Positions 11,743 through 37,096 of a stretch of DNA of 44,294 nucleotides are shown in pieces (positions within the stretch are counted from its first letter, which is position 1; each line of letters opens with the position of its first letter). The notes under the pieces are model-generated. The model ran no database searches. It was not told where the DNA came from and saw only the letters and a list, made by a program, of their open reading frames with translations. Source of the stretch: a virus. The translations under genes were made by a program, and so were the position numbers. The stretch lies in IMG/VR virus record IMGVR_UViG_3300044608_001275, positions 1 to 44,294 of that record; one strand, written 5' to 3'.

Positions 11743-12698
11743 CAACGCATTTCGGGCACAAGGACCGCACCAGCCCGGTGCAGACCTTCCCCAGGGTGAT
11801 CCCTCCGGGTACGGGCGATTGCGACCACACGGCCATTACGGCTGCGCTTCGCTCAATGCAAACCGATGTGGACGTGTTGAAGGCTGACAAGTCTGCGCCA
11901 GTTGATGTGACGGCCCTTAGCAGCCGTGTGCGGGCGCTTGAGGCATCTGTTCTGAACGGCGGTCGGCCTGCCCCTGACCCGGAGCTTGTGCGTATCTCAA
12001 ACACCGCTGTCGGCAACGGTGAGTATGTGGTGACCCCATCGAAAACGATGGGCGCAACGTACACGCACACCCCCGGCGAGTTCGATGACTACCTCGTGGT
12101 GTTCGTGGGCTACACAATCCCCGATGTTGTTCCAGGCGGGTCGACGTGGAACATCACGGTCAAGTACGGCACGCAGACGCTTACCCAGTTGGGTGCGGCT
12201 TTGACAGGCGGTTCACATCCCACCGATAAGACGCGGGGCGAGGTTAGAGCCTACGGTGCGGCTATCACACCGGGCAAAGGCCCGCAGGAAGTTGTGGTCA
12301 CTTGCACCACCGGCACGGATTTGGCTGGTAAAGCCAACAATCCGACTTACACGTTCGCCTCTAACTCTGTGTCGGTGAGTAACTATGCCAGCCACACCAT
12401 TACAGGTACGGCTAACTCTGGCGATACCGACGGCTACGGTGTTCGGGCACGGTATCGGCGGCTTATCGGGATGAGCCAGGTGGCGACTACCCCGGCGAAA
12501 ACGTATGTGCAGTCCGGTGCTGGCGGTCCCGCCAGGGTGTTGTGGGAATCCTCTGACAACGGTGGCAGGCGAGTGGTGGTGTTTGAGGACGCTTGCTCGC
12601 CGGATTCGATGATTATCATGTACGGCGGCAACACGGCTAACCGTTATGCGTCTGGTTCAGTCACGTTCGACGTGTTGGCCCCGCCGAAGGTTATCTGA
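11739..12698 (+). CDS. Beta-sandwich decoration or fibre protein
   Basis: The 319-residue protein has a short coiled-coil-like segment (TAITAALRSMQTDVDVLKAD). It is followed by about 220 residues dominated by Ser, Thr, Gly and Val strands (YLVVFVGYTIPDVVPGGSTW, NITVKYGTQTL, VTFDVLAPPKVI). This resembles C-terminal fibre domains of actinophage tail proteins. A strong AGGAGG precedes the GTG at 11739, which overlaps the previous stop. Base use is less GC-skewed than in neighbouring genes (more GCT, TCT and GTG-ending codons), which hints at separate acquisition. Probably a partner of the upstream coiled-coil protein. Confidence 0.6.
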   Translation: MTTHFGHKDRTSPVQTFPRVIPPGTGDCDHTAITAALRSMQTDVDVLKADKSAPVDVTALSSRVRALEASVLNGGRPAPDPELVRISNTAVGNGEYVVTPSKTMGATYTHTPGEFDDYLVVFVGYTIPDVVPGGSTWNITVKYGTQTLTQLGAALTGGSHPTDKTRGEVRAYGAAITPGKGPQEVVVTCTTGTDLAGKANNPTYTFASNSVSVSNYASHTITGTANSGDTDGYGVRARYRRLIGMSQVATTPAKTYVQSGAGGPARVLWESSDNGGRRVVVFEDACSPDSMIIMYGGNTANRYASGSVTFDVLAPPKVI

Positions 12699-19569: not shown

Positions 19570-19606
19570 GGCCCAGGCGGTGTTGGTAGCACCGTGATCC
19601 TGGGCC
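19570..19606 (+). other. Nested hairpin ahead of the HNH gene
   Basis: GGCCCAGG (19570-19577) pairs with CCTGGGCC (19599-19606). Inside it CGGTG (19578-19582) pairs with CACCG (19590-19594), with the loop TTGGTAG and an unpaired TGAT. The structure lies 27 bases after the tape-measure stop and ends 23 bases before the HNH ATG. It could end or protect the tape-measure message, or reduce translation of the nuclease in late transcripts. Confidence 0.6.
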
Positions 19607-19629
19607 TAACCGACACGGAAGGTCGGCTG

Positions 19630-20544
19630 ATGGCGAAGCGTACTCCGCTGACATGTACCCCGGACAACTGCGGCGAGAACTACCCGGCCTGCGGCAAATC
19701 ATCTACCTACGTCAACCGCAAGTGCCGGTGTGATCCATGTGCGGAAGCGTGCAGGGAAAAGCATCGCAAGATGCGTGCCGCAAGGGTTTGGATCAACGCA
19801 GGAGACTGCTCGCCAGGGAATTGCGGCGAGATATTTGCCAAGTGCGGGAAAGTAAGCACTTACTCTCACTGCAAGTGCCGGTGCTCATCCTGCCTAGGCG
19901 CGATGAACGCATACAGTCGGCAGCGGTATTCGGCTGCGCAGCCGCGCAACTACGGTGAGTGCAGCCCGGACAACTGCGGCGAGCTTTTCTTGAAGTGCGG
20001 CACGCCAGGGACTTTCATCGGCAGGAAGTGTAAGTGCTCGGTCTGCAAAGCGGCGGCCAGGGCGAAGAACAAGCAGCAAATCCCATCTGGCGCCGGGCGG
20101 AACTACGGCGACTGCTCCCGTGAGAACTGTGGAGACACTTTCCGTTTGTGTGGCACTACGACCACATATCGGCGCAAGAAGTGCCGGTGCTCTGCCTGTA
20201 ATGAAGCCGTGCGGCGTTACGAGAATGACTCGTACAAAAAAGACCCATCAAAGAAGAAGCTCAAGAGCCAGATTCGGCGCGCAAGAGTCAAGGGCGTTCT
20301 TTGCATCGAATACACGGCTGAGCAGTTGGCGCGGAAGTACGAATACTGGGGCAACACCTGCCATATCCAAGGACCGAACTGCAACGGCGTAGCGGAGGAC
20401 ATTGAACACGTGATTCCGATCAGCTTGGATGGCCCAAACATTCTCGCCAATATTCGGCCATCCTGCGAGACATGCAACGGCAACAAGGGGTCTCAATGGC
20501 CATTCCCGATCAGGCTAATTCCCGGAGGGAAGGTTAAGCAGTGA
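19630..20544 (+). CDS. HNH endonuclease with four Cys-rich repeats
   Basis: This 304-residue protein has four tandem Cys-rich modules in residues 1-195. Each follows the plan (D/E/R)NCG(E/D).F..CG...TY...KCRCS.C; examples are DNCGENYPACGKSSTYVNRK and ENCGDTFRLCGTTTTYRRKK. Each has about six Cys and is likely to bind zinc and DNA. The C-terminal HNH domain shows CHIQGPNC, DIEHVIPISLDGP, NIRPSCETCNGNKGSQ. It is a free-standing homing-type nuclease inserted between the tape measure and distal tail genes. The ATG at 19630 is preferred over a GTG at 19594, which lies inside a hairpin. Its end overlaps the next GTG. Confidence 0.85.
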   Translation: MAKRTPLTCTPDNCGENYPACGKSSTYVNRKCRCDPCAEACREKHRKMRAARVWINAGDCSPGNCGEIFAKCGKVSTYSHCKCRCSSCLGAMNAYSRQRYSAAQPRNYGECSPDNCGELFLKCGTPGTFIGRKCKCSVCKAAARAKNKQQIPSGAGRNYGDCSRENCGDTFRLCGTTTTYRRKKCRCSACNEAVRRYENDSYKKDPSKKKLKSQIRRARVKGVLCIEYTAEQLARKYEYWGNTCHIQGPNCNGVAEDIEHVIPISLDGPNILANIRPSCETCNGNKGSQWPFPIRLIPGGKVKQ

Positions 20545-22497: not shown

Positions 22498-22986
22498 ATG
22501 ACCGAAGTGCTAGAGCGCGCCGACCTCCTCGGCGGCCTGTCGTCCCTCGCCGACCACCAGAACCTGTGGGGCAAGGTCCAGATGCGCCGCGCATGGATGG
22601 AGCAGATGCGGCTGTCCAAGCCTGTGGTGGAGCTGTACGACGGCGACTACACCCTGCGCGGCATCGTCGCAGGAGAGCGGGGCGGTGACTTCGAGGAGAT
22701 CGAGAACGAGACCGGCACAGCCTCAATCCAGTTGGGCTTGGATCACTACCTCGCCCAGTGGGTGATGAACCACCGTGGCCGCGACAAGCGCAACGTCCAC
22801 CTCGTGATTGAGAAGCAGGGCGTGCGCTGGTCGGGCCGCATGGACTCGTATCGCGTGGTCAAGACCGACTCTGGTGATGCGTACCTTGACATCCTGTTCA
22901 AGCACGACTTCGAGGAGTTGAAGCACATCCGCTGCTGGGTCTGCGCCCCCCTGGGCAACCGGGGGGGCGCAGGCCGAGCAGCCTGA
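22498..22986 (+). CDS. Minor tail protein, 5' part (stops in the hairpin element)
   Basis: The first open frame of an interrupted gene gives 162 residues. It shows the family start (LWGKVQMRRAWMEQMRLSKP; VVELYDGDYTLRGIVAGERG) and continues through DAYLDILFKHDFEELKHIRCW. Then come 15 residues encoded by the hairpin element (VCAPLGNRGGAGRAA) and a TGA at 22984-22986. In relatives of this tail-tip (Tal-like) family the chain runs on without a break. AGAGGGGTG precedes the ATG at 22498. Together with the frame from 22992 it makes one protein of about 600 residues if the gap is bypassed. Confidence 0.8.
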   Translation: MTEVLERADLLGGLSSLADHQNLWGKVQMRRAWMEQMRLSKPVVELYDGDYTLRGIVAGERGGDFEEIENETGTASIQLGLDHYLAQWVMNHRGRDKRNVHLVIEKQGVRWSGRMDSYRVVKTDSGDAYLDILFKHDFEELKHIRCWVCAPLGNRGGAGRAA

Positions 22987-22994
22987 CTTGAGCC
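22941..22994 (+). other. Interrupting hairpin element with matched GCC codons (candidate bypass site)
   Basis: CTGCGCCCCCC (22941-22951) pairs perfectly with GGGGGGCGCAG (22962-22972). The upstream frame ends at TGA 22984-22986. The downstream frame has its own TGA at 22989-22991, so no simple one-base shift can join them. GCC at 22945-22947, or GCC at 22981-22983 directly before the stop, matches GCC at 22992-22994. Re-pairing there continues with AAT CCA TTC TTA, giving the conserved Ala-Asn-Pro-Phe-Leu. The first pair skips 47 nt and the second 11 nt. T4 gene 60 is the known precedent (50 nt, matched GGA codons, hairpin, stop after take-off). Confidence 0.6.
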
Positions 22995-24365
22995 AATCCA
23001 TTCTTAAGGCCGGAATTCCAATTTCCCAAGCTGTGGATCATTTTCGGACCCGCCCGATTTTGCCTGTTGACAACACTTTTCGCGAATCTGTGCATCCGCC
23101 TGGAGGGGTCACTCTGGACCCTTCCTGATGACCCGCTGGACATCAACGAATGGATGGGGCCGAGCTTCTGGCCGGGCAACTGGCGCAACATCGTCCGGCC
23201 CTATGGCCTGTTCTTCGACAACACACCGACCACGGTGATCTTCAGCCGGTTCGCCTCCTTCTACGACTGCGCCAAGAAGGTGCTCGACGACACCGGTCTG
23301 ACGATGACCTGCCGGCGGTATCTGAAAGATCGCGACCCGCACCCGTTCGAGGATCTGATCGGGACCAACCATCTGCTGGAGGCCCTGTATACGAAACTGC
23401 CTCTGCGGCAGGGATGTTTGGTCTGGGATGTCGAGGACAACAACGAGTGGGGCAACGAGACGAGCTTCGGCGGCTCCACCCTCACCGGCCTGGTCCGGGC
23501 GGCGGTGCAACTGACCTCCGACGGCTTCCTCGAGGGTGTCGACGTTTTCACCGGCGACGCCACCTATCCGGGGCAGTACTACACGCCGCTGTTCCTGGGC
23601 ACCTCGCCGCAGGCCCCGTGGGTCGTGTTCGAGGAGGGACCGTACACCGGCATCAAGTCCAGTGAGTTCCAATACTTTGAGGCCACTGACACCTCCTTCC
23701 TCTGCGGCGGGAGGAGCGCACCGGGCATTAACGAGGCGGCGTCGGCAGCGGTGAACATCGCCGGTGACTGGCTAACGTCGTTTGTTAACAGCGCTATTGG
23801 TGCGGCGTCGATGTTCGGTGGCGCCATCGACCTTCCCCCTCTCGGGGGAATGATGGATGCTGTCGCCCGAATTATCTATCTCGATGTTCTGGCCGCGTTC
23901 ATGGAGATCCCCACCCTGCGCGCCTCGGGCATGGGCCTGCCCATCTCAGGGCTGGAGGGCAAGAAGACCTCACTGGGCGACTTCCACTACTACGAGGGTT
24001 GGGCAGAGGCCGAGCAGGCGTTCACCCTCGGGGCCGGGCTGGCCATCAAGAAGAAGATGTTCGACACGCAAGCCCACTCGACACACACCCTGGAGATCTC
24101 CGATGCCGCACCGTACCTGTTCGGCAAGAACGGTTACGGGCACCTGTGGATCGGATCGCGTGTTGGCACAACGGTTCTCGGCTACCCGATCCCCGACCAG
24201 ATCTTTGTCGAGCGCGTGAAGCGGGCAAAGTATTCTTGGGGTAAGGACGGCCCGAGTGGGTGGCAGATCGGCCTGGGCTACCGCCAGCCGAGAGACCCGA
24301 TGGAGAAGATCATGGATCAGATCAAGGACATCAACGGCGCTCTGGGAACCCTGGGGATCTTGTGA
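22992..24365 (+). CDS. Minor tail protein, 3' part
   Basis: The second open frame runs from just after TGA 22989-22991. It begins with conserved family sequence (NPFLRPEFQFPKLWIIFGPA, then RFCLLTTLFANL), continues through SLWTLPDDPLDINEWMGPSF and ends in a globular region (HYYEGWAEAEQAFTLGAGLA; HLWIGSRVGTTVLGYPIPDQ). The first plausible in-frame starts are a TTG at 23067 and an ATG near 23154. Both lie after the conserved start and lack a ribosome site, so separate initiation would lose part of the domain. This argues for continuous synthesis with the 5' part. The stop overlaps the gp29-like GTG. Confidence 0.85.
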   Translation, partial: ANPFLRPEFQFPKLWIIFGPARFCLLTTLFANLCIRLEGSLWTLPDDPLDINEWMGPSFWPGNWRNIVRPYGLFFDNTPTTVIFSRFASFYDCAKKVLDDTGLTMTCRRYLKDRDPHPFEDLIGTNHLLEALYTKLPLRQGCLVWDVEDNNEWGNETSFGGSTLTGLVRAAVQLTSDGFLEGVDVFTGDATYPGQYYTPLFLGTSPQAPWVVFEEGPYTGIKSSEFQYFEATDTSFLCGGRSAPGINEAASAAVNIAGDWLTSFVNSAIGAASMFGGAIDLPPLGGMMDAVARIIYLDVLAAFMEIPTLRASGMGLPISGLEGKKTSLGDFHYYEGWAEAEQAFTLGAGLAIKKKMFDTQAHSTHTLEISDAAPYLFGKNGYGHLWIGSRVGTTVLGYPIPDQIFVERVKRAKYSWGKDGPSGWQIGLGYRQPRDPMEKIMDQIKDINGALGTLGIL

Positions 24366-26660: not shown

Positions 26661-26706
26661 AAGCGCCCCACCGACTCGAAACATGAGTCGGTGGGGCGCT
26701 TTTTTG
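26661..26706 (+). terminator. Strong intrinsic terminator of the late operon
   Basis: A perfect 17-bp stem (AAGCGCCCCACCGACTC at 26661-26677 with its complement at 26685-26701) has a 7-nt loop and runs into a T-tract at 26700-26705. It lies 20 bases after the last late gene. It separates the virion genes from the tRNA-Lys and integrase region. Confidence 0.93.
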
Positions 26707-26708
26707 CG

Positions 26709-26781
26709 TGCCCCCGCGGGGTTTCGATCCCCGTGCCCGCGGATTAAAAGTCCGCTGCTCTTCCGATTGAGCTACAGGGGC
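26709..26781 (-). tRNA. tRNA-Lys(TTT), probable attP core
   Basis: Read on the minus strand, this is a complete 73-nt tRNA without CCA. The acceptor stem is GCCCCTG/CGGGGGC, with a D arm, the anticodon arm GCGGA-CTTTTAA-TCCGC (anticodon TTT) and the T arm CGGGG-ATCGAAA-CCCCG. It lies just past the 3' end of the integrase gene, where the attP of tRNA-integrating phages is found. Most attP cores hold only the 3' part of a tRNA, so an entire tRNA is unusual. It may serve both as attachment site and as a working gene. If this is an integrated prophage instead, it would be one att end. Confidence 0.85.
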
Positions 26782-30261: not shown

Positions 30262-30491
30262 CCCGCCTGCGCGTCGGCTTCTACCTCACCACGCTGATCG
30301 GCGTCATCTACACCGCGGCCAGCCTGTTCGACTCGCTGACCCAGGTCGGAATTGGCGTCGTCGTGGCGTGCATCGGCGTGATCGGTTCGGGTGCGGTCGA
30401 TTACATCGAGTCCGACCGGGATCTGCGCACCATCTACCGCGAGCAGGTCTGGGCGCGGCGGGACCTCATCAACGTCAAGGAAGAGCAATGA
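30258..30491 (+). CDS. Two-span membrane protein
   Basis: The 77-residue protein has two hydrophobic segments (VGFYLTTLIGVIYTAASLF and VGIGVVVACIGVIGSGAVDY). A charged cytoplasmic tail follows (RDLRTIYREQVWARRDLINV). It is coupled by overlaps to the membrane mini-protein before it and to the ssb relic after it. Superinfection exclusion is possible but unproven. Confidence 0.65.
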   Translation: MTRLRVGFYLTTLIGVIYTAASLFDSLTQVGIGVVVACIGVIGSGAVDYIESDRDLRTIYREQVWARRDLINVKEEQ

Positions 30492-30553
30492 ACGAGACCA
30501 CCATCACCATCATCGGCAACCTGACCGCGGCGATGGCCGGTGGTGTGGGGTGA
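30488..30553 (+). pseudogene. Relic of the ssb 5' end (or leader peptide)
   Basis: This 21-codon frame reads MNETTITIIGNLTAAMAGGV and then stops. TTITIIGNLTA matches the start of the intact SSB 550 bases downstream (MTQVTIIGNLVADPELRF). An HNH gene starts in the overlap of its stop. The simplest reading is that the nuclease gene inserted into the ssb start and left the first codons behind, while ssb was rebuilt with a second start. Confidence 0.6.
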
Positions 30554-31041
30554 CCACAGCTAAGCGGGTGGTTCATCCGGGAGTCAGCCCGAATCTTGCG
30601 CTAGCGGTGCGGATTACAGAGTTCTGGATGCTAGTCAACCGTGTTTCAGACGATGAGTGCTGGGAGTGGAAGGGCTATAGGGATGAGCACGGATATGGGA
30701 TGTTTCAGTTCGGTGGTCGAATGAGATTCGCTCACGATCTGGCGGTCTCGTTCCGTACCGGCGAAGAGCGTGACCCTGCCCTGGAAACCTGTCATTCCTG
30801 CCACAATCCCCCGTGCTGCAACCCAAGCCACCTGCGGTACGACACCCATAAAGCAAACGTTGCCGACATGGTTGCCGCTGGCCGCCACCGCCGAGGCGCA
30901 ACGAAGCTGAACGCAGAAGTGGCAGAGGTTATCCGGCAACGCATCGCAGCGGGAGCCAGGCAGCAAGACCTTGCTGATCAATACGGCGTCAACAACTCAA
31001 TGATTTCCATGATCAAGACGGGGAGAAGGTACGCGAAATGA
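30550..31041 (+). CDS. HNH endonuclease with C-terminal HTH
   Basis: The 163-residue protein is an HNH_3-type nuclease (RVSDDECWEWKGYRDEHGYG; FRTGEERDPALETCHSCHNP; PPCCNPSHLRYDTHKANVAD). A helix-turn-helix follows (EVIRQRIAAGARQQDLADQY, GVNNSMISMIKTGRRY). This is the standard layout of free-standing homing nucleases. It sits exactly between a relic and the intact ssb gene and overlaps both by four bases. Its less GC-rich codon use than that of its neighbours supports recent arrival. Confidence 0.85.
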   Translation: MTTAKRVVHPGVSPNLALAVRITEFWMLVNRVSDDECWEWKGYRDEHGYGMFQFGGRMRFAHDLAVSFRTGEERDPALETCHSCHNPPCCNPSHLRYDTHKANVADMVAAGRHRRGATKLNAEVAEVIRQRIAAGARQQDLADQYGVNNSMISMIKTGRRYAK

Positions 31042-33425: not shown

Positions 33426-34025
33426 ATGGCGATCTCAAAGCGACTCAGGTTCGAGATCCTGCGTCGCGATAACCACGCCTGCCGCTACTGCGGCCAGTCG
33501 GCGCCGGATGTGATGCTGCATGTCGATCATGTTGTGCCCGTTGCCCTCGGCGGCGCAGACGAGCCCGAGAACCTCGTCACCGCCTGTGTTGACTGCAACA
33601 CCGGGAAGTCGTCGACCCCCGTCGACGCCGCCATTGTCGCCGATGTTGCAGCCGACGCACTGCGGTGGTCGCGGGCGATGGAGATTGTGGCTACAGGCCG
33701 CGCGGTCGCGCGGCAGGAGGCCCGCGAACGGCAGAACGAGTTCCTCGCCCTCTGGTGCCGCTGGACCATTGGCGGCGAGGTTGTCGAACTTGAAGACGAC
33801 TGGGCGTCGAGTCTTGATCGGTTCGTGCTGGCCGGGCTTGACATGGAGGACATGGAAGAGCTGATCGCTGTTGCCATGCGGTCGAGGTCGAGTGAAAAGT
33901 GGCGCTACTTCTGCGGCTGCTGCTGGCGCCGAATTGCTGAATCCCAGGAGCACGCCAGGGCGATTGTGGAGATGCAAATCGCCCGCGAATCCGGCGAACT
34001 CGACGATATCGCGGCGGTGTTCTGA
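33426..34025 (+). CDS. HNH endonuclease fused to a helical domain
   Basis: The 199-residue protein starts with an HNH_5-like nuclease (RLRFEILRRDNHACRYCGQS; VMLHVDHVVPVALGGADEPE; NLVTACVDCNTGKSS). A helical region follows (ADALRWSRAMEIVATGRAVA; GLDMEDMEELIAVAMRSRSS) with a second Cys pair (FCGCCWRRI). This fusion commonly lies directly before the replication initiator in actinophages. The stop overlaps the initiator ATG, so it probably acts in replication rather than homing. Confidence 0.82.
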   Translation: MAISKRLRFEILRRDNHACRYCGQSAPDVMLHVDHVVPVALGGADEPENLVTACVDCNTGKSSTPVDAAIVADVAADALRWSRAMEIVATGRAVARQEARERQNEFLALWCRWTIGGEVVELEDDWASSLDRFVLAGLDMEDMEELIAVAMRSRSSEKWRYFCGCCWRRIAESQEHARAIVEMQIARESGELDDIAAVF

Positions 34026-36234: not shown

Positions 36235-36533
36235 ACACACCGTTCGACCCCCACCTCCCGCCGGCGCCGCACTGGCACGAGATGGCTTTGTGCCGCGAGA
36301 CCGACCCGGACCTGTTCTTCCCCGAGCGTGAGCGCGGCGCGTCGACCTCCGGGGTGATCAGGCAGGCCAAGCAAGCCAAGTCGGTGTGCTCCAAGTGTCC
36401 GGTGCAGGCCCGGTGCCTACAGGACGCCCTGGATCGCAACGAGCGCAACGGGATTTGGGCGGGAGTCAACTTCGGCCAGCCACTAGAGCGAAGGAAGGCA
36501 TCGGCGCAAGAGGCGACATGGAAGGCGAGCTAG
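36231..36533 (+). CDS. whiB: WhiB-family regulator
   Basis: The 100-residue protein has the WhiB layout: a first Cys in MALCRETDPDLFFPERE, three more in SVCSKCPVQARC (CxxCxxxxxC), and the G-[VI]-W turn (RNGIWAGVNFGQP) before a basic tail. WhiB proteins hold a 4Fe-4S cluster and bind the host sigma factor. Phage copies can alter host transcription or block superinfection. WhiB is restricted to actinobacteria and their phages. The start of the next HNH gene lies inside its last codons. Confidence 0.92.
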   Translation: MNTPFDPHLPPAPHWHEMALCRETDPDLFFPERERGASTSGVIRQAKQAKSVCSKCPVQARCLQDALDRNERNGIWAGVNFGQPLERRKASAQEATWKAS

Positions 36534-37096
36534 TGGAGATCAAGTTCCTTAGCGGAGTGCTTTACCTCATCGACGGGTTCTGGTCGAAAGTCGAACGATC
36601 TGGCGACTGCTGGCTGTGGACTGGAGAAAAGAACAGCACCGGCTATGGGGTCTATGCGGTTCATCGGCATGGCGAGAGGGAACGAATTCTCGCGCACCGA
36701 TTCTCGGCGAGGCTGTCTGGAATGGAGCTGCGATCTCCGGATGATGTCGTGCTCCATGAATGCGACACCCCATTGTGCGTTCGACCCGATCATCTAAGGG
36801 TCGGTACTCAGAAGGAAAACCTGCGCGATGCTCTTGCGAAGGGCCGCCTGAACCTGGCCGGACTGACAAGCGCGCATCAGCATCAATGCAGAAGGTGTGA
36901 GCAGGAATTCTGGGGCGCACCTAAAGACAGGTTTTGCGGCGAATGCCGGAAGGAGTTGATGGAAGCCGTACTCGCCGCCGCCGAAATCGGCGAGTCGCAG
37001 TACGTCACCGCACGCCGGTTGGGGATATCGCAATCCTCAGTGCGGGCGTACCTGAAGCGAAGCCGGGAAGAACGTCACTTACAGGAGGCGATGTGA
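36518..37096 (+). CDS. HNH endonuclease with zinc ribbon and HTH
   Basis: The 192-residue protein is an HNH_3 homing-type nuclease (FWSKVERSGDCWLWTGEKNS; RILAHRFSARLSGMELRSPD; VLHECDTPLCVRPDHLRVGT). A zinc ribbon (CRRCEQEFWG ... CGECRKE) and an HTH (YVTARRLGISQSSVRAYLKR) follow. Its start overlaps the WhiB end by 16 bases and its stop overlaps the next GTG. Lower GC than that of its neighbours suggests later arrival. Confidence 0.85.
   Translation: MEGELVEIKFLSGVLYLIDGFWSKVERSGDCWLWTGEKNSTGYGVYAVHRHGERERILAHRFSARLSGMELRSPDDVVLHECDTPLCVRPDHLRVGTQKENLRDALAKGRLNLAGLTSAHQHQCRRCEQEFWGAPKDRFCGECRKELMEAVLAAAEIGESQYVTARRLGISQSSVRAYLKRSREERHLQEAM

Follow-up and report, generated by a model that had tools for sequence, protein, structure and literature searches.

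Ribosome bypassing over a long gap is well established in phage or bacteria for one gene, T4 gene 60, where it requires matched take-off and landing codons, an adjacent stop codon, stem-loops both at the take-off site and 5' of it, and a nascent peptide (PMC11194080, PMC5009743). T4-type sliding is most processive at gaps of <56 nt (PMC11194080), and the gene 60 bypass is believed to have travelled with a mobile cassette (PMC5009743). The byp elements of Magnusiomyces capitatus mitochondria are likewise described as mobile, and their take-off and landing codons are not always perfectly matched; bypassing has also been proposed for the terminase of Streptomyces phage Hau3, and counterparts of T4 gene 60 have long been expected (PMC5009743). 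In the literature searched, mycobacteriophages and bypassing are not joined as a finding and occur together only in incidental co-mentions.

The locus described here was noticed by reading the letters of one stretch of DNA (the window), which is the whole of a 44,294-base IMG/VR virus record (the source record) with a gene layout like that of a cluster A mycobacteriophage; the original prediction was of a candidate translational bypass element in a minor tail gene. In phages Kristoff, Sheen, and Ollie this gene is one ORF of about 590–600 codons, and the Kristoff copy aligns end to end with Bxb1 gp25 (PDB 9d93). The product of the gene is the trimeric baseplate hub of the Bxb1 gp25 family, an essential part of the tail. 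In the source record the gene is divided between two ORFs, and the features of the locus are shown in Table 1.

Table 1. Features of the interrupted baseplate-hub gene and its surroundings in the window.
Feature	Coordinates	Strand	Remarks
Free-standing HNH endonuclease ORF	19594..20544	+	2.4 kb upstream of insert; candidate mobilising enzyme
ORF1, N-terminal part of baseplate hub / minor tail protein	22498..22986	+	Pfam PF14594 Sipho_Gp37, profile 2-99
Hairpin	22931..22982	+	Arms 22931-22954 and 22959-22982, GCAA loop 22955-22958; same fold in L089
TGG (Trp), last codon before insert	22936..22938	+	Candidate take-off A; take-off role inferred
Insert, 53 nt, between TGG and GCC	22939..22991	+	From alignment to relatives; 52 nt in second species
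GCC inside stem	22945..22947	+	Candidate take-off B
GCC directly before stop	22981..22983	+	Candidate take-off C
TGA closing upstream frame	22984..22986	+	Conserved in L089
TGA in downstream frame, directly before resume codon	22989..22991	+	Conserved in L089; model A landing triplet
GCC, first family codon past insert	22992..22994	+	GCT in L089; landing codon, models B and C
ORF2, C-terminal part of baseplate hub	22992..24365	+	457 aa; PF14594, profile 101-370

Alignment to Kristoff, Sheen, and Ollie places the insertion between ...TGC TGG and GCC AAT CCA..., and ORF1 accordingly consists of 147 family residues up to Trp 22936–22938, then 15 insert codons, then TGA. Among the collected loci that hold both gene halves, 189 relative loci are contiguous at this point (gap 0). 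The comparison with element-less relatives thus yields an exact 53-nt insertion after TGG and no gene boundary, and the gene that is continuous in those 189 loci carries a gap of about 50 nt here (53 nt, and 52 nt in the second species described below). The frames and stops had been read correctly in the original prediction: ORF1 stops at 22984–22986, and the downstream frame is open only past TGA 22989–22991. Its statement that no single slip joins the frames also holds, because TGA is found in both frames at the junction in both species; with offsets of 53 versus 52 nt, neither a single +1 or -1 slip nor stop readthrough joins them, and the third reading frame across the junction offers no route between the halves. 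Polymerase slippage at the C6 and G7 runs was considered and rejected, as translation would run into a TGA ahead of the resume codon after any change of one base.

Two further features of the hub gene were noted. An A-T-rich block with the rare codons CCA TTC TTA AGG (22995–23030) lies amid GC-rich genes directly downstream of the insertion site, and some insertless relatives retain it nearly unchanged (97% of its 36 nt in Crispicous1). In another record (L105, 3001–3401) the reading frame of a homologous hub gene is broken before the junction is reached, perhaps through an error or because the record is a decaying prophage.

In the hairpin, a GCAA tetraloop closes a stem of 17 uninterrupted pairs, some of them G.U wobbles, below which the left-flank codons CGC TGC TGG take part in a 6-bp helix; the structure is larger than the 11-bp perfect hairpin first described. 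Its minimum free energy is -56.5 kcal/mol, against -33.6 ± 3.6 for shuffled sequences (z = -6.4; no shuffle equally good), and it ranks top among the short-range inverted repeats of the record. The corresponding hairpin in L089 has z = -4.7, so that both species have a stem-loop at the proposed take-off site. A stem this strong might block ribosomes, which counts against bypassing.

The 30-base hairpin core has an exact match in two other IMG/VR contigs, in the same gene and at the same codon boundary. Each was assembled from a different metagenome, and their 99.8% identity over 4.5 kb makes them one species, a diverged freshwater one (the contigs behind labels L006, L007, L088, and L089). Its hub gene is about 75% identical to that of the source record, and 120 of the 230 four-fold sites differ (52%); despite this divergence, an identical 49-nt run over the hairpin (22927–22975) is common to both species. 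The 3' tail of the insert carries two substitutions and one deleted base in the second species, hence its 52 nt; the core is thus constant while the tail varies, even by one base. Inserts of 53 and 52 nt impose different frame offsets, and therefore no common frameshift repairs both. Both species nonetheless regain ...CW followed by ANPFLRPEFQFPKLW at the same protein boundary, which points to a frame-independent joining as the only kind that would serve both.

Among the loci collected, carriers are confined to the source record and this one other species; very close insertless relatives show 92% identity in the N-terminal part. Searches of IMG/VR, 84,980 species genomes, and plasmids turned up no further copy in other genes or genomes: the hairpin core had no match in the species genomes, and in plasmids there were only weak short matches. 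Several candidates were set aside. At this position L104 differs in frame by 72 nt, but it is a distant relative and the difference is not the element. A blastn match of the insert to a 'ribonucleoside reductase class II' gene (Theia, Conspiracy, and others) is due to chance, since it falls where the next gene begins and no similar hairpin is present, and the arm/tail pattern matches L210–L213 in IMG/VR are chance hits in ordinary coding sequence.

Substitutions in the downstream half have the character of a translated protein. Over the first 25 codons past the junction, which precede any canonical start in the source record, the two species differ at 1, 0, and 10 sites in codon positions 1, 2, and 3 respectively. 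The two independently assembled insert-bearing contigs show four differences in ORF2 and all four are synonymous, for which the chance probability is about 0.007 at a neutral synonymous share of 0.29; ORF2 changes private to the L089 lineage number 21 synonymous and 13 nonsynonymous (21/34, against the same neutral share). L089 is nested among insertless relatives in a tree of the N-terminal part, and some of its conserved downstream coding, and of its lineage changes, may predate its insertion. These patterns indicate protein-level selection on the resumed frame, beginning with its first codon.

We infer that a mobile hairpin insert is probably tolerated in this gene by ribosome bypassing resembling that of T4 gene 60, because bypassing is a known mechanism that fits an exact insertion, its recurrence at another length, and selection on both flanks. 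One hub protein would then most likely be made across the insert. A short mobile hairpin-forming DNA element would have invaded the baseplate-hub gene; ribosomes reading ORF1 would be held up at the hairpin, their peptidyl-tRNA would release its codon while the mRNA slides, and the tRNA would re-pair at or just before GCC 22992, giving a single hub protein from two out-of-frame ORFs. Spread between related phages would probably be by recombination or homing, and the HNH enzyme may assist. A small mobile element tolerated by bypassing was one of two readings offered in the original prediction, and of the explanations considered it agrees best with the comparison among relatives, since the hairpin is conserved, the second species has another frame offset, the downstream half is under selection, and the flanks contain a conversion-like tract; the bypassing step itself stays at the level of probability given above.

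Three take-off sites were considered, and no take-off/landing pair satisfies every T4 criterion. In model A (TGG 22936 to TGA 22989; distances 53/52 in the two species) the stem lies directly 3' of the take-off codon, as in T4, and the product has the exact family sequence CW-ANPF (...CWANPF...), with a codon match of two of three bases (TGG/TGA). Model B (GCC 22945 to GCC 22992; 47/46) adds two residues, and model C (GCC 22981 to GCC 22992; 11/10) adds 14, requires that the stem be translated, and would leave the hairpin free to re-form once the ribosome has passed. Both have a GCC/GCC match in the source record and GCC/GCT in L089. A stop directly past the take-off codon, as in T4, is found only for GCC 22981–TGA 22984, a hop of 10–11 nt, and for neither long hop. 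Given bypassing, TGG 22936 is a slightly favoured take-off site, held at less than even odds, with GCC 22981 close behind and GCC 22945 unlikely. The original prediction named GCC 22945 first, with GCC 22981 as the alternative; of the three candidates it is not the strongest, TGG 22936 giving the exact family protein. The GCC triplets at 22945, 22981, and 22992 are where they had been reported, although the gaps of 47 and 11 nt given for them are start-to-start distances and the bases skipped number 44 and 8. No phage tRNA-Trp or tRNA-Ala gene favouring one of these models was found. The models predict different tryptic peptides, namely CWANPFLRPEFQFPK for take-off at TGG, CWVCANPFLRPEFQFPK for GCC 22945, and CWVCAPLGNR plus AANPFLRPEFQFPK for GCC 22981.

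The element appears to be mobile. Comparison of L089 with the insertless relative L010 shows 93–100% identity in windows from -360 to -60 and mostly about 87–93% from +60 to +350, but only 0.72–0.78 around the junction. Within a tract from -39 to +79 there are 32 differences in 119 positions, compared with 47 in 620 outside it (Fisher test, 2e-8, with boundaries chosen post inspection). The codons TGC TGG are common to the insert-bearing species, whereas most close relatives have GTG TGG. It looks as if the second species gained the element together with a short foreign tract, in the manner of the co-converted flanks acquired in homing (PMC2988022), although ordinary recombination is possible and would leave a similar tract.

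The HNH ORF of the source record has four cysteine-rich (zinc-finger-like) repeats and sits between the tape measure gene and the next minor tail gene; its relatives in cultured phages are only distant, HNH-domain ones. No endonuclease gene adjoins the element in all carriers, that of the source record being 2.4 kb off, and the L089 contig having none at that place. A distant HNH relative containing one internal TAG lies close to the integrase of the L089 contig. A search of insertless freshwater contigs, themselves partial sequences, gave no HNH relative, and one further insertless record (G014) gives a weak HNH-domain match. A link between the HNH gene and the element is at most suggestive.

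The record is otherwise rich in possible homing endonucleases, with three more HNH or His-Me endonuclease-like ORFs (33426–34025, 36386–37096, and 30391–31041). A 17-bp perfect hairpin (26661–26701) adjoins tRNA-Lys (TTT; 26708–26781) and the tyrosine integrase gene, and is a possible attachment site or terminator; a related hairpin is present in L014 (6851–6895), and in L206 an HNH gene occupies that place beside the same tRNA-Lys. Positions 11988–12691, which lie in a 319-aa ORF without family match, are 94.7% identical to L007, compared with about 67–78% over the remaining aligned genome, and are evidently the result of a recent exchange.

Mobility alone could be read differently: a mobile or recombination-generated hairpin might simply break the hub gene, leaving its carriers defective or helper-dependent, and since the element appears recently gained in the L089 lineage, conserved flanks alone prove no function. 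We nevertheless find insertional inactivation unlikely, given that both halves are intact apart from the insert in two species, that the ORF2 differences between insert-bearing contigs are uniformly synonymous, and that the 3' tail has diverged but the hairpin core has not. Moreover, a siphophage is not expected to build working virions without a hub.

Less probable still is that ORF1 ends at TGA 22984, ORF2 is started separately, and the halves assemble as a split hub. The junction lies just past a well-predicted N-terminal beta-rich region: the AlphaFold model of the intact relative L010 is poor (mean pLDDT 47.6) and confident only to about residue 144, with the junction at 148/149, which may mark the border of a domain, so that two separate polypeptides are structurally conceivable. 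There are also phage enzymes, such as Aeh1 NrdA, that are split and reassemble (PMC2988022). However, the resume frame opens at the junction without a canonical start codon in either species, TGA being followed there by GCC or GCT, and the first downstream starts are not conserved between them. The earliest in the source record is TTG 23067, 25 codons past the resume codon (codon 26), in keeping with the original statement that no usable start precedes the conserved block; those of L089 are GTG ATG at codons 16–17, where the source record has ATC ATT. Separate initiation would lose the conserved ANPFLRPEFQFPKLW block, yet only synonymous changes are found there.

Removal of the hairpin from the mRNA, with the ends joined as in an intron and no part for the ribosome, would explain both the frame indifference and the exact restoration of the family protein. 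We regard it as highly improbable. A search of 22700–23200 against Rfam 15 gave no intron family match; weak miRNA and sRNA matches fell below gathering scores and were put down to the GC-rich hairpin. The self-splicing introns known to us are all larger than 53 nt, and we know of no bacterial enzyme that excises such a hairpin from mRNA and religates the ends. A sequencing or assembly artefact, a concern raised at the outset and plausible on its face because runs such as C6 and G7 are prone to error within a strong hairpin, is excluded for practical purposes because the same 49-nt stretch recurs at the same site in three separately assembled contigs of two diverged species, the second from two other metagenomes and at the same codon boundary, and because small errors are unable to create a 53-nt insertion.

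If bypassing is indeed what tolerates this insert, the locus would be a second independent case of long bypassing, with natural length variants (53 and 52 nt), very close insertless relatives, and a hairpin that is strikingly different. The rules governing take-off, sliding, and landing could then be compared between genes and not drawn from one, and the case would support the evolution of bypassing as a way to tolerate mobile inserts. There may also be a family of mobile bypass elements in actinobacterial phages, hairpin cassettes that enter essential genes, are silenced at translation by bypassing, and spread by gene conversion or homing; such a family, if real, would be a phage counterpart of the mitochondrial byp elements.

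As in T4 gene 60, about 50 nt separate two out-of-frame ORFs of one phage gene, a hairpin stands in the candidate take-off region, one or more stop codons fall in the gap, and the gap is within the <56 nt range. In contrast to gene 60, which encodes a topoisomerase, the gene here encodes a baseplate hub in another phage group and host type, the hairpin is long and very stable with a GCAA loop, the long hop has no pair combining a perfect match with an adjacent stop, and the HNH gene lies 2.4 kb away, outside the split gene. With the M. capitatus byp elements it shares apparent mobility and, as proposed here, a short insert tolerated by bypassing, although those occupy 81 mitochondrial sites under relaxed decoding, whereas here there is one site in a GC-rich phage read by a bacterial ribosome. 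Like the Hau3 terminase gene it is an actinobacterial phage virion-assembly gene proposed to need bypassing, but the Hau3 gap is much shorter with a UUA codon at the site, in contrast to the 53-nt hairpin insert described here.
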